A DNA stretch of 64,000 bases from Phycisphaerae bacterium (GTDB taxonomy: Bacteria; Planctomycetota; Phycisphaerae; Phycisphaerales; SM1A02), in assembly GCA_002709295.1 (NCBI GenBank), contig PAQL01000012.1, positions 50,298-114,297 on the forward strand, read 5' to 3'. Position 1 is the stretch's first letter; every line of letters begins with the position of its first letter. The translations under genes were made by a program, and so were the position numbers. Below the pieces are notes generated by a model, which worked only from the letters and a program-made list of their open reading frames with translations, did not search any database and was not told the origin of the DNA. Positions 45,203-51,796 of this stretch are shown piece after piece.

Positions 45203-45520
45203 TCAGCCTCCCGAGAGGCGGATCAGGACCACGCCCGCCACGATCAGACCCAGCGAGACGATTCGCGGGGCGGCAGCCGACTCACCGAGCCGGGAGATGC
45301 CCCATGCAGCGGTCCCGACCGCTCCCAGCCCGGTCCAGATCGCATAGGCGGAACCGATCGGTATCTCCCGGGTCGCCATCGCGAGCAGCCCCATGCTCGC
45401 GGACATGGCCAGCATGAACACGATGGTGGCCCGAGGTCTGCGAAGACCGTCGCTCGCCTTGAGGGAGACGGCTCCGACGCACTCGAAGATCGAAGCCGCG
45501 AACAGGACGAACCAGCTCAT
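45203..45520 (-). CDS. Small multidrug resistance (SMR) transporter subunit
   Basis: 105 aa, four hydrophobic helices. The SMR glutamate lies in the first helix (SIFECVGAVSLKAS), and the IPIGSAYAIWTGLGAVGTA segment is the family fingerprint. A second SMR gene overlaps by four bases upstream, so the two probably act as a heterodimeric exporter of cationic compounds. Compare EbrAB, YkkCD or Gdx/SugE pairs. Confidence 0.9.
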   Translation of the reverse strand: MSWFVLFAASIFECVGAVSLKASDGLRRPRATIVFMLAMSASMGLLAMATREIPIGSAYAIWTGLGAVGTAAWGISRLGESAAAPRIVSLGLIVAGVVLIRLSGG

Positions 45521-45891
45521 GGATGACCTCCCCGGGGCTGGAACAATCGGAGCCCGACCACTCCGGCGACCACCAGGGCGATGCCTGCGATCCGGAGCAA
45601 CGTGGCCGGATCGTCATGCACGAGCCACCCGAGCACCGCGGTCCCCGCCGCTCCTGACCCGGTCCAGACGGCATAGGCAGGACCGATGGGCAGGATGCGG
45701 GTGGCCGATGCGAGCGGCAGCAAGGACGCGATCATCAACAGCACGACCCCGGTCGTCCACAGCGGACGACTGAATCCCTCGGTGAAGGGAAGGCAGGTCG
45801 CCCAACCGATCTCGAATGCCACCGCCAGCACCACCAGGCCCCATGCCCGACGGGTGCCCCGTGGAACCGAAGTGGATCCGGCTTCAGGCAT
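45517..45891 (-). CDS. SMR transporter subunit, Gdx/SugE-like
   Basis: 124 aa; a basic 15-residue tail precedes four helices. The first helix has VAFEIGWATCLPFTEGFSR, close to the SugE/Gdx guanidinium-exporter type (FEIGWA), and ILPIGPAYAVWTGSGAAGTAVLGW is the family fingerprint. It overlaps the propeller gene upstream by eight bases and its SMR partner by four. No guanidine riboswitch is possible immediately upstream because the genes overlap. Confidence 0.88.
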   Translation of the reverse strand: MPEAGSTSVPRGTRRAWGLVVLAVAFEIGWATCLPFTEGFSRPLWTTGVVLLMIASLLPLASATRILPIGPAYAVWTGSGAAGTAVLGWLVHDDPATLLRIAGIALVVAGVVGLRLFQPRGGHP

Positions 45892-47039: not shown

Positions 47040-47540
47040 TCACCAGTCGTCGTTGTCGCGTCGCTTGTCCTTGCCCCGACCTCGACGTCCGGAATCCTTC
47101 TCGAACATCCCACCCCCACCACCTCCGGGAGGGCCGTCGAAACCACCACCGCCGCCGCCACCGCGATAGCCGCCACCGCCGCCACCACCGCCGCCTCCGC
47201 GATAGCCGCCGCCGCCACCCCCGCGATAGCCACCGCCACCGCCGCCGCCGCCACCGCCACCGCCGCGATAGCCACCGCCACCGCCGCCGCCACGTTCCTC
47301 TCGGGGACGGGCTTCATTGATGGTCAGGGGTCGTCCGCCGAAGTCGACGCCATTGAGAGCTGCGATGGCCGCTCGCCCGGCATCATCATCCATCTCGACG
47401 AAGCCGAAGCCACGAGGCCTGCCGGTCTCACGATCCGTCACCATGTGAACGCGGTGAACCTCACCGTGAGGGGAGAAGTGTTCTCGAATCTCGTCCTCAG
47501 TGACGGAAAAAGGGAGGTTCCCGACGTAGATGCTGATCAT
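47040..47540 (-). CDS. Glycine-rich RRM-type RNA-binding protein
   Basis: 166 aa from ATG 47540. An N-terminal RRM domain (about 1-80) shows RNP2 SIYVGNLPF and RNP1 RGFGFVEM. The second half is tandem [10 protein letters not shown]-type repeats, ending in a basic [16 protein letters not shown] tail. This is the layout of cyanobacterial/planctomycete Rbp proteins and plant glycine-rich RNA-binding proteins, often cold-induced. The repeat is the source of the G/C-simple DNA at about 47110-47290. Confidence 0.92.
47110..47290 (-). repeat. Glycine-codon tandem repeat within the RRM gene
   Basis: Runs of GGC/GGT triplets interspersed with TATCGC (Tyr-Arg) units encode the GGGGYRG repeats. Such DNA is prone to replication slippage and length change. 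Confidence 0.75.
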
Positions 47541-47710
47541 GATCGACCGATTCCAAGGTCTCGCCCGTCTGCTGATGCACTCCTCTTCAACCTCGGGCCG
47601 GTTGTGATGGAGAAGCCGTTCATCCCCGAACGGCACCTTGAAATGGTACCAAGAGCCGGGCGACTTCCATACGCTGGATCAGGATCCCCGCCCTGTCACG
47701 GAGCCGTTCA

Positions 47711-49999
47711 TTGACCCGCATTTCAAAGCGCTTTCTCATCGCATTGACTGCGATTCTCGCGACCTGGTCCCTTCCCGGATCTGCAGATGCCCATCTCGAC
47801 GAGCTCGTCAGGAACGAGTCGATCCAACCACGCTGGATCGATGAAGAGACCCTTGAAATCACCCTTGAACTAGGCGGTACACGTCAGCAACGCCGAATTT
47901 CGGCGATATCCGGGGAGGTGCTGAAGGACGACCGGGCGAAGGGAGATCCCGCTTCAGTGAAGCCGTCCAAAGCCGATCGAAGCCGGGGCCGAGGGAACGA
48001 CATTCAGCTGCAGTTCGTGAACGATTTGGACGTTTCTCTGCGGCTGTTCTGGCTCGATCAGCAGGGACGACGACGCGGATACGGCACGATCCCTCCCGGG
48101 GAGACTCACGATCAGCAGACCTTCGGGGGCCACGCCTGGCTCCTCACCGATCCTGATGATCGGTCGGTGATCGGATTCGTCGCACCGGAACACGATGGCA
48201 TCGCGGTCATCGACGACCGAACCCGCGAGGAATGGAGGAACCTCCCGTCGAAGTCGGACCGAAGGCCTCGCCGCGAGAGAGCCTCCTCTTCGAGGCGCGA
48301 ACGAACCGCGTTCGTTCGTGACCACGATCTCTGGTGCCGTGAAGCCGATGGATCGGAACGCGCCTTCACCACCGACGGCACGTCGGAATCTCCCTGGGGG
48401 CGAATCTCCACCTCACCCGATGGGCGTTTCGCCCTCGCGATGAAGACCGATCGTGCCCAGGATCACCCGGTCCACATCTTGGAGGTCGCTCCCGAGGACC
48501 AGGTGCAGCCGAGACTGAAGACCATCGACTACCTGAAGCCCGGTGATCGCATCGCCCGTCCCAGACCGGCGGTCTTCGACCTTGAGACAGGCCGTCGCAT
48601 GGACATCGATCCCGCACTGGTCCCCAACCCGTGGTCCATCAACCGGATCTCGTGGCATCCGGACGGCGACCGGGTCCGCATGCTCTACAACCAGCGAGGA
48701 CACCAGGTGCTTCGCTATCTCGAACTCGATGCCCGCGATGGAAGCACCCGGGTCCTGATCGAGGAGACGTCCCCGACCTTCATCGACTACGCGGGGAAGT
48801 TCTTCCTGCATGTGCTGGAGGGCGGCGATGAGGCGGTGTGGATGTCGGAGAGAAGCGGCTGGAACCACCTCGATCGGGTGAACCTCGAGACCGGCGAACG
48901 AGTCCCCCTGACCCGGGGACCATGGGTGGTTCGTGCCGTCGACGACGTCGACGAGGAGGAGGGCCGGCTCCGCATCAGAGTCCTCGGAATCGATCCCGAT
49001 CAGGATCCCTATCACGTGCACCATGCCATGATCGACCTCGATTCCGGTCGCATGATCCGCCTCACCGAGGGCGACGGCACCCACCGGATCGAATTCTCCC
49101 CCGATGGTCGCTTCTACGTGGACCGCTGGAGCCGCGTCGATCTCCCCCCCGTTCATGAACTCCGTCGCACCGAGGACGGAGGACTCGTCACCACGCTGGC
49201 CCGAGCCGATGCATCCGGACTCCTCGAGATCGGATGGACGATGCCGGAGCGATTCGTGGCGAAGGGACGTGACGGTGAAACGGACGTATGGGGAGTGATC
49301 GTCCGTCCCCGAGGCTTCGAACCGGATCGTCGGTATCCGGTCGTGGAACACATCTACGCCGGACCTCAGGGCCATTTCGTCCCGAAGTCCTGGAGCAGGA
49401 ACTGGAGAATGCGTGATGCCGCGGATCTGGGCACCATCGTGGTGCAGATCGACGGCATGGGCACCAACTGGCGCTCCAAGGCCTTCCACGACGTCGCCTG
49501 GCGCAATCTCGGAGATTCCGGATTCCCGGATCGAATCGCATGGATGAAGGATGCGGCCGAGACACGTCCATGGATGGATCTCGAACGGGTCGGCATCTAC
49601 GGCGGGAGCGCCGGCGGACAGAGCGCTCTCCGCGCCCTGATCGCTCACGGCGACTTCTACGACGTCGCGGTCGCGGACTGCGGCTGTCACGACAACCGCA
49701 TGGACAAGATCTGGTGGAACGAACTCTGGATGGGATGGCCGATCGCGGAGCACTATGCGGAACAGTCCAACGTGGACCAGGCCCACCAGCTCCAGGGCGA
49801 TCTCATGCTGATCCTCGGGGGCCTCGACACCAACGTCGATCCCGCCTCCACCCTCCAGGTCGTCGACGCCCTGGTCAAGGCGGACAAGGACTTCGAGTTC
49901 GTCCTTCTGCCATCCGCAGGACACGGTGCCGCGGAGACTCCCTACGGACACCGCAGACGTCTGGACTTCCTTCGCCGGAAGCTCGTGGACGATCGTTGA
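47711..49999 (+). CDS. S9 (prolyl oligopeptidase/DPP IV-like) peptidase with VHL-like beta domain
   Basis: 762 aa from TTG 47711 with GGAG eight bases upstream. Signal peptide (about 1-27, ending SADA). Residues about 95-165 match the von Hippel-Lindau beta domain: RLFWLDQQG, GYGTIPPGETHDQQT and FGGHAWLL. A DPP IV-type N-terminal beta-propeller follows (about 190-510; INRISWHPDGDRVRMLYNQ). The C-terminal alpha/beta hydrolase domain has the serine in GIYGGSAGGQSAL (about 632), the aspartate in LILGGLDTNVDP (about 705) and the histidine in PSAGHGAAE (about 737). It probably cleaves after proline outside the cytoplasm. W114, Y124, T137, H141 and W143 align without gaps to the human VHL hydroxyproline pocket. 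Confidence 0.92.
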   Translation: MTRISKRFLIALTAILATWSLPGSADAHLDELVRNESIQPRWIDEETLEITLELGGTRQQRRISAISGEVLKDDRAKGDPASVKPSKADRSRGRGNDIQLQFVNDLDVSLRLFWLDQQGRRRGYGTIPPGETHDQQTFGGHAWLLTDPDDRSVIGFVAPEHDGIAVIDDRTREEWRNLPSKSDRRPRRERASSSRRERTAFVRDHDLWCREADGSERAFTTDGTSESPWGRISTSPDGRFALAMKTDRAQDHPVHILEVAPEDQVQPRLKTIDYLKPGDRIARPRPAVFDLETGRRMDIDPALVPNPWSINRISWHPDGDRVRMLYNQRGHQVLRYLELDARDGSTRVLIEETSPTFIDYAGKFFLHVLEGGDEAVWMSERSGWNHLDRVNLETGERVPLTRGPWVVRAVDDVDEEEGRLRIRVLGIDPDQDPYHVHHAMIDLDSGRMIRLTEGDGTHRIEFSPDGRFYVDRWSRVDLPPVHELRRTEDGGLVTTLARADASGLLEIGWTMPERFVAKGRDGETDVWGVIVRPRGFEPDRRYPVVEHIYAGPQGHFVPKSWSRNWRMRDAADLGTIVVQIDGMGTNWRSKAFHDVAWRNLGDSGFPDRIAWMKDAAETRPWMDLERVGIYGGSAGGQSALRALIAHGDFYDVAVADCGCHDNRMDKIWWNELWMGWPIAEHYAEQSNVDQAHQLQGDLMLILGGLDTNVDPASTLQVVDALVKADKDFEFVLLPSAGHGAAETPYGHRRRLDFLRRKLVDDR

Positions 50000-50074: not shown

Positions 50075-51796
50075 ATGAGCACACCAGACCACCAGCGCCC
50101 GATCACGATCCCAGGGCATCTGCTCCTCGCTCTGCTCACCTCGACCAGCGCGATCGCGATGCAGGATCCCGCGGTCTTCACCTCGGGCGACGACGGCTAC
50201 GACACCTTCCGCATCCCCGCCCTGATCGAGGCCGCCGACGGCACCCTGCTCGCCTTCGCCGAAGGTCGGGTCGGTGGTCGCGGTGACTCCGGGAACATCG
50301 ACCTCGTCCTGAAGCGCAGTGGAGACGGGGGCACGACCTGGAGCGACCTCGAGGTGGTCTGGGACGACGGCGGCAACACCTGTGGGAACCCGTGCCCGGT
50401 GCTCGATGCCGTCAGCGGACGAATCCACCTGCTCTCCACCCACAACCTCGGCCAGGACCACGAGTCCGAGATCATCGCCGGGACCTCCGACGGCACGCGA
50501 ACGGTATGGGTGCTGACCAGCGACGATCACGGCGCCTCGTGGAGCGAGCCGCGGGAGATCACCTCGACCACCAAGCAGCCCGACTGGACCTGGTACGCGA
50601 CCGGCCCCGGAAACGGCATCCAGCTGCGATCCGGCGAGCATGCCGGACGTCTGCTGATCCCCTGCGATCACATCGAAGCCGAGACGAAGCACTACTACTC
50701 GCACTGCATCGCCAGCGACGACCACGGCAGGACCTGGAAGATCGTCGGGCGAACCCCGTCCCATCAGGTGAACGAGTGCGCCGTCGCCGAACTGAATGAC
50801 GGTTCCCTGCTCCTGAACATGCGGAACTACGACCGCTCGAAGCGGGCCCGGGCCCTCTCACGATCGACCGACGGCGGTTCCACCTGGAGCGAGGTCACTC
50901 GGACCCCCGCCCTGCCGGAACCCATATGCCAGGCCTCGATGGTGGCGTGTGACGGGGGCCGGACCCTCGTCTTCTCCAATCCGGCGAACCCCGACGGACG
51001 GACCGACATGACGGTCCGCCGAAGCCGGGACGGCGGTCGCACCTGGTCGAAGGGGAACGTGCTTCATGCCGGTCCCTCCGCATACTCCTCCCTCGCCACG
51101 ATGGGAGGCCCCGAACAGCTCGCCGGACTCGCATGTCTCTACGAGGCGGGTGAGAAGCACCCCTACGAGCAGATCCGATTCCGACGCATCGATCGGAGAA
51201 TGCTCGGTCTCGATCGTGATCACGACCGGGTCGCGGACGACTGGACCGAGCTCCTGGTTCCGGACTCCCTCGATGGATGGCACATCCTGCCGGGTGGCAC
51301 GTGGACCTGGAAGGACGGAGTGCTCGAGGGACGCATCACCGGGGACGACCCCCGCCACGGCCTGCTGGTCACGGACCGCGAGTACGAAGACTTCGAAGCG
51401 GTCCTGTCCTTCCGCATCGAGAGGGGCGACTCCGGCTTCTATCACCGGGTCGAGGAACTGGGCGATGCGATCGGCGTGAGCGGCTTCCAGGCCGAGATCG
51501 ACCCGACCCCCGAGGTCGGCGGACTCTACGAGACTCGTGGCCGGGGCTGGGTGATCAAGCCCGAGCCATCGATGATCGAGGAGATGCGTTCCAGAGGCGG
51601 AGAATGGCTTGAGATGCGGGTCCGGGCGGTCGGCGGCGACGTCGATGTGTTCGTCGACGGCTACCCGACCGCAAGCCTGCGCGATGACCCCGGCCGTCGG
51701 CGCGGGCACCTCGCCCTCCAGCTCCACGCCGACATGGACGTCGACGTCGACTTCCGATCGCTTCGGATCCGGGAGATCGAACCGAAGCCCGAGTGA
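50075..51796 (+). CDS. Exo-alpha-sialidase fused to DUF1080 (3-keto-disaccharide hydrolase-like) domain
   Basis: 573 aa. Signal peptide (about 1-28). The sialidase propeller has the FRIP motif (YDTFRIPALIEA) and five Asp-boxes: SGDGGTTW, SDDHGASW, SDDHGRTW, STDGGSTW and SRDGGRTW. From about residue 385 begins a DUF1080 concanavalin-like domain (DGWHILPGGTWTWKDGVLEG, GFQAEIDPTPEVGGLY). The enzyme should remove sialic acids from glycoconjugates; the C-terminal domain may bind or cleave sugars. No sialic-acid uptake or catabolic genes are adjacent. Confidence 0.9.
   Translation: MSTPDHQRPITIPGHLLLALLTSTSAIAMQDPAVFTSGDDGYDTFRIPALIEAADGTLLAFAEGRVGGRGDSGNIDLVLKRSGDGGTTWSDLEVVWDDGGNTCGNPCPVLDAVSGRIHLLSTHNLGQDHESEIIAGTSDGTRTVWVLTSDDHGASWSEPREITSTTKQPDWTWYATGPGNGIQLRSGEHAGRLLIPCDHIEAETKHYYSHCIASDDHGRTWKIVGRTPSHQVNECAVAELNDGSLLLNMRNYDRSKRARALSRSTDGGSTWSEVTRTPALPEPICQASMVACDGGRTLVFSNPANPDGRTDMTVRRSRDGGRTWSKGNVLHAGPSAYSSLATMGGPEQLAGLACLYEAGEKHPYEQIRFRRIDRRMLGLDRDHDRVADDWTELLVPDSLDGWHILPGGTWTWKDGVLEGRITGDDPRHGLLVTDREYEDFEAVLSFRIERGDSGFYHRVEELGDAIGVSGFQAEIDPTPEVGGLYETRGRGWVIKPEPSMIEEMRSRGGEWLEMRVRAVGGDVDVFVDGYPTASLRDDPGRRRGHLALQLHADMDVDVDFRSLRIREIEPKPE

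Follow-up and report, generated by a model that had tools for sequence, protein, structure and literature searches.

A VHL-type beta domain with a well-kept candidate hydroxyproline pocket on an apparently exported S9-family peptidase

In animal pVHL, S111 and H115 bind the hydroxyl of 4-hydroxyproline (Hyp) and Y98 its carbonyl (PMC6105673); the functional Drosophila protein naturally has Thr at position 111 (PMC4195687). A bacterial VHL beta domain has been noted in EMK97_00595 of Litorilituus sediminis, which like the protein described here is predicted to be secreted; the paper on it deals with tumour suppression and analyses neither an S9 fusion nor the gene neighbourhood (PMC9002001). 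Unlike our protein, the Litorilituus protein carries no peptidase. Among peptidases, the closest described enzymes are those of S9B (DPP IV, prolyl tripeptidyl aminopeptidase), in which a propeller is combined with an alpha/beta hydrolase domain. Bacterial operons for trans-4-hydroxyproline catabolism comprise an epimerase, a D-Hyp dehydrogenase, a deaminase and a semialdehyde dehydrogenase; we know of no bacterial Hyp operon that includes a VHL-bearing peptidase. The VHL domain in such proteins is already flagged automatically by Pfam. The openly accessible journal literature, searched without preprints, subscription titles or the domain-architecture listings of InterPro, yielded no paper on a VHL-peptidase fusion or on an operon containing one.

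The DNA analysed (the window; 64,000 nucleotides of a Phycisphaerae contig) carries at 47711..49999 (+) an open reading frame with a TTG start, encoding a 762 aa S9-family peptidase with a VHL beta domain. Residues 1-27 (47711..47791, +) resemble a Sec signal peptide by eye (RISKR, a hydrophobic stretch and A-D-A), and from this N-terminus the protein appears to be exported. The VHL beta domain (~residues 92-165; 47984..48205, +) is followed by a DPPIV_N beta-propeller (residues 191-480; 48281..49150, +; Pfam 115 bits) and a Peptidase_S9 catalytic domain (residues 562-758; 49394..49984, +; Pfam 150 bits). Only mirror ORFs, usual for high-GC DNA, were found on the opposite strand. Nearby, a gene divergent from the peptidase gene at 47040-47636 (-) encodes an RRM protein whose long tail is rich in Gly, Tyr and Arg ([11 protein letters not shown] repeats), two adjoining small multidrug resistance (SMR) genes lie at 45203-45891 (-), and a single protein with a BNR/sialidase-like domain and a 3-keto-disaccharide hydrolase domain is encoded shortly 3' of the peptidase gene at 50075-51796 (+).

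The original prediction of a VHL-like beta domain was borne out by profile, sequence and structure searches. PF01847 (VHL) was matched by residues 97-149 at 23.2 bits (curated cut-off 21; E 7e-5), ahead of DPPIV_N and Peptidase_S9. When the domain segment alone was searched against PDB with phmmer, human VHL was the top match (E 0.004); with a profile built from 63 bacterial relatives, VHL was matched at 5e-15 and the next entry at 0.18. In the AlphaFold model, residues 88-177 form seven strands with a mean pLDDT of 88 (~95 within strands), and the best solved structures for this predicted domain (Foldseek, VIA-align) were all pVHL, including complexes with Hyp peptides. The pVHL fold was thus recovered, with Z 11.2 and 2.1 Å over 81 residues at 25% identity. 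Searches with the full-length model recovered DPP IV-like chains and nothing else (Z 32), and in this model the VHL domain stands ahead of the propeller. Unlike pVHL, the bacterial protein is fused to a peptidase and apparently exported, and no VHL C-terminal family (alpha domain, elongin/cullin-binding box) was matched after the beta domain in the Pfam scan; the propeller stands there instead.

The gap-free alignment to human VHL was likewise confirmed, at a constant offset of 26, with Ser to Thr as the sole change at the five pocket positions. W88, Y98, S111, H115 and W117 of VHL correspond to W114 (48050..48052, +), Y124 (48080..48082, +), T137 (48119..48121, +), H141 (48131..48133, +) and W143 (48137..48139, +), and since this ungapped alignment lies inside a matching fold, the five residues likely form a common pocket in the predicted structure. 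Two further positions depart from pVHL: the pocket residue I109 is Gln in the bacterial fusion, and H110, which contacts the peptide backbone in pVHL, is Gln in the window protein and His in 78/103 fusions.

Conservation was counted over 103 distinct S9-VHL domains collected with the Pfam model alone; 80 relative loci that had been picked by the motif QHT[YF]AGH[VA] were excluded from counts at residues 109-116. The seven most conserved positions (VHL numbering) are N78, Y98, W88, W117, H115, S/T111 and G114. Y98 and N78 never vary, W88 and W117 are each kept in 102 domains and H115 in 101, and position 111 is Thr in 100 domains and Ser in 3. The complete five-residue pocket is present in 99/103 fusions, or 89/93 at <80% identity; the pocket is thus near-invariant among relatives and does not vary freely. 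A five-residue pattern kept in about 100 distinct homologues is not due to chance. W88 and W117 could be conserved for folding alone.

The peptidase half was examined by alignment. The triad Ser633-Asp706-His738 is intact: Ser633 (GGSAGG; 49607..49609, +) aligns with the catalytic Ser of prolyl tripeptidyl aminopeptidase and is conserved, and Asp706 (49826..49828, +) and His738 (49922..49924, +) are conserved in every row that reaches them. The oxyanion residue Tyr549 and Asn708 are also present. With its propeller and its catalytic domain bearing the Ser-Asp-His triad, the protein is a member of the S9 family. The predicted proline specificity was not supported despite the intact triad, and neither was assignment to the DPP IV-type proline-specific S9B enzymes. 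The propeller's double-Glu N-terminus anchor, known from di- and tripeptidyl peptidases, falls in a gap of the alignment to 2d5l, and Tyr631, Tyr662 and Tyr666 of the DPP IV S1 site are replaced by Ala634, Trp669 and Trp673, replacements kept throughout the fusion family; proline specificity is therefore not to be assumed.

In the class to which the window belongs, PF01847 was matched in 65/397 genomes, 63 of them scoring over the curated cut-off; the figures were 62/392 (59 over it) for a phylum sample and 63/141 for one verrucomicrobial order, and none of 14 control genomes gave a match. The majority of matches are S9 fusions, and the bacterial pocket spans at least five phyla. In VHL-less S9 homologues of up to 54% identity the domain is cleanly absent, with no remnant or decayed copy, and its presence requires at least six changes on the S9 tree. 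Two loci from bins titled Proteobacteria and Klebsiella pneumoniae (L164, L177) cluster tightly with Verrucomicrobiota S9-VHL genes, and the bin names are probably wrong. At another locus a second, VHL-less S9 gene (L157:8048-10156) lies directly 3' of the S9-VHL gene.

Other carriers of VHL domains are sulfatases, GH127 beta-L-arabinofuranosidases, SASA esterases and LRR proteins, each with the domain at its C-terminal end; M90 peptidases and kinases also contain it. Residue 115 is His in 91/93 non-redundant S9 fusions and Ala or Asn in 15/18 fusions to glycan-acting enzymes, the 18 being phylogenetically non-independent. On the sulfatases (L295:3846-7735, L290:6872-8770, L297:6896-8749, L298, L307, L313, L315, L316, L321) His115 is mostly replaced by Ala, and the domain sometimes occurs in tandem; in the genomes of L295 and L297, the sulfatase-type VHL gene lies ~7 kb or less from a Hyp epimerase gene. 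Ala115 may leave room for a glycosylated Hyp. GH127 fusions were seen at L078:5924-7939 (-) and L103:1435-2349 (-), and protein kinase fusions with Sel1 or MORN repeats at L257:4377-6647 and L318:2433-4154. HypBA1, active on extensin-derived sugars, belongs to the GH127 family. The substrate sugars of the first characterised GH127 enzyme are released from extensin Ara-Hyp (PMC10850190).

Gene context was surveyed at 80 loci from named genomes and at 60 more from the verrucomicrobial order. Fourteen distinct S9-VHL genes, all in Verrucomicrobiota-type genomes, adjoin genes of Hyp catabolism in at least four gene orders, mostly on the same strand and almost touching. At L204 a deaminase (DHDPS family) comes first, then the Hyp epimerase (PF05544), then S9-VHL, an FAD D-amino-acid dehydrogenase and finally, in the opposing direction, an aldehyde dehydrogenase; the epimerase stop and the S9-VHL start overlap in ATGA, and the dehydrogenase starts six bases past the S9-VHL stop. 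The same order, deaminase, epimerase, S9-VHL and D-amino-acid dehydrogenase, is seen at L196, and all four families of the known operons surround the fusion gene at these two loci. Elsewhere the fusion lies between epimerase and dehydrogenase (L193), 3' of the dehydrogenase (L195, L275), 5' of deaminase, epimerase and dehydrogenase (L265) or in further orders (L164/L216). Across the verrucomicrobial order, 7 genomes have a Hyp epimerase gene within 7 kb of some VHL gene, of whatever kind, against 0.10 expected; in two of the seven (G864, G793) that VHL gene is of the sulfatase type and not S9. Linkage of S9-VHL to Hyp genes takes 8 changes across the S9 tree and so does not stem from a single inherited neighbourhood. 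Among 35 loci from the window's own class, no S9-VHL gene was found beside Hyp genes.

In the window's own genome, one S9-VHL gene is present among 15 S9 matches. Its PF05544 enzyme has both active-site Cys motifs, with P. aeruginosa PA1268 as the closest solved structure, and its gene has as neighbours one of the DHDPS family and one, running convergently, for an aldehyde dehydrogenase; this Hyp-type cluster lies away from the S9-VHL gene. HypE was the best NCBIfam for the epimerases, over 100 bits above proline racemase, with scores of 344.7 bits (own genome) and 418.2 bits (operon), both below the equivalog cut-off of 450. Within the class (397 genomes), the epimerase occurs in 18/65 VHL-bearing and 22/332 VHL-less genomes (Fisher p 5e-6, kinship ignored), and in the verrucomicrobial order in 39/63 versus 36/78 (p 0.09, not significant). 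No match to the prolyl 4-hydroxylase family PF13640 was obtained in the own genome, so any Hyp would come from outside.

Taken together, a real and unusually well-kept VHL Hyp pocket is predicted on a putatively secreted peptidase, and the gene context points independently to hydroxyproline. We consider it probable, with fair confidence, that the protein is a secreted S9 serine peptidase whose VHL beta domain, placed before the propeller, binds peptidyl 4-hydroxyproline and holds the enzyme on environmental Hyp-rich proteins that feed the Hyp pathway. As in animal VHL, Thr137 and His141 would grip the Hyp hydroxyl and Trp114, Tyr124 and Trp143 would shape the pocket; the domain would tether the peptidase to its substrates, and released Hyp would enter the epimerase, dehydrogenase, deaminase and aldehyde dehydrogenase pathway. 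Homology and context make Hyp binding and targeting probable, and the substrate may be algal cell-wall glycoproteins or collagen. Of the original idea of Hyp recognition joined to a proline-specific peptidase, the recognition and targeting part gains from the near-invariance of the pocket across phyla, the presence of fusion genes in Hyp-catabolic operons and the natural Thr of Drosophila VHL; the proline-specific half found no support.

Three other readings were weighed. The pocket may instead bind the enzyme itself or a partner, at a proline loop, the propeller edge or a dimer interface, and so serve assembly; the fixed site of the domain ahead of the propeller, the oligomers common among S9 enzymes and the folding role that W88, N78 and W117 also have would fit, and yet the near-invariant hydroxyl-holding His/Thr pair, the operon link to Hyp genes, the clean absence of the domain from 54%-identical homologues and its reuse on sulfatases, GH127 enzymes and M90 peptidases are all left unexplained, and we regard an assembly role as unlikely. 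Slightly less likely still is a domain that binds proline or small rings generally with no preference for Hyp, the operons then serving the scavenging of proline and Hyp alike. Proline racemases are indeed among the relatives of the Hyp epimerase and the adjoining dehydrogenase is D-amino-acid-dehydrogenase-like, but the two hydroxyl-contacting residues are as conserved as the ring-stacking ones, and the margin of 4-hydroxyproline epimerase over proline racemase in the profile scores also argues against general binding.

That the domain reads the bacterium's own hydroxylated proteins, in quality control or signalling as in animals, seems very improbable. Prolyl 4-hydroxylases do occur in some bacteria, and PF13640 was matched in 5/65 VHL-bearing genomes of the class, but it had no match in the other 60 nor in the window's genome, and the S9-VHL protein is apparently exported. 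Anchoring of a secreted peptidase to external Hyp-rich proteins thus remains our preferred reading.

A broader view can be offered tentatively, and we hold it doubtful as a whole: bacterial VHL domains may be a class of modules that bind Hyp in proteins, comparable to CBMs, on enzymes that dismantle Hyp-rich glycoproteins. The pocket would come in two types: peptidases would carry His115, for free Hyp, and sulfatases, GH127 enzymes and esterases mostly Ala115, perhaps for O-glycosylated Hyp; animal VHL may descend from such a Hyp-reading module. If the preferred reading is true, the fusion would represent a bacterial hydroxyproline-reading domain used for substrate targeting, a role without description in the searchable literature, and the domain could serve as a small reagent of bacterial origin for binding Hyp. 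Choanoflagellates reportedly lack VHL (PMC9618697), while bacteria of at least five phyla have this pocket, so that one could then test where the oxygen-sensing reader of animals came from. For the organisms themselves, the fusion would go some way to explaining the attack of Planctomycetota and Verrucomicrobiota on Hyp-rich proteins.
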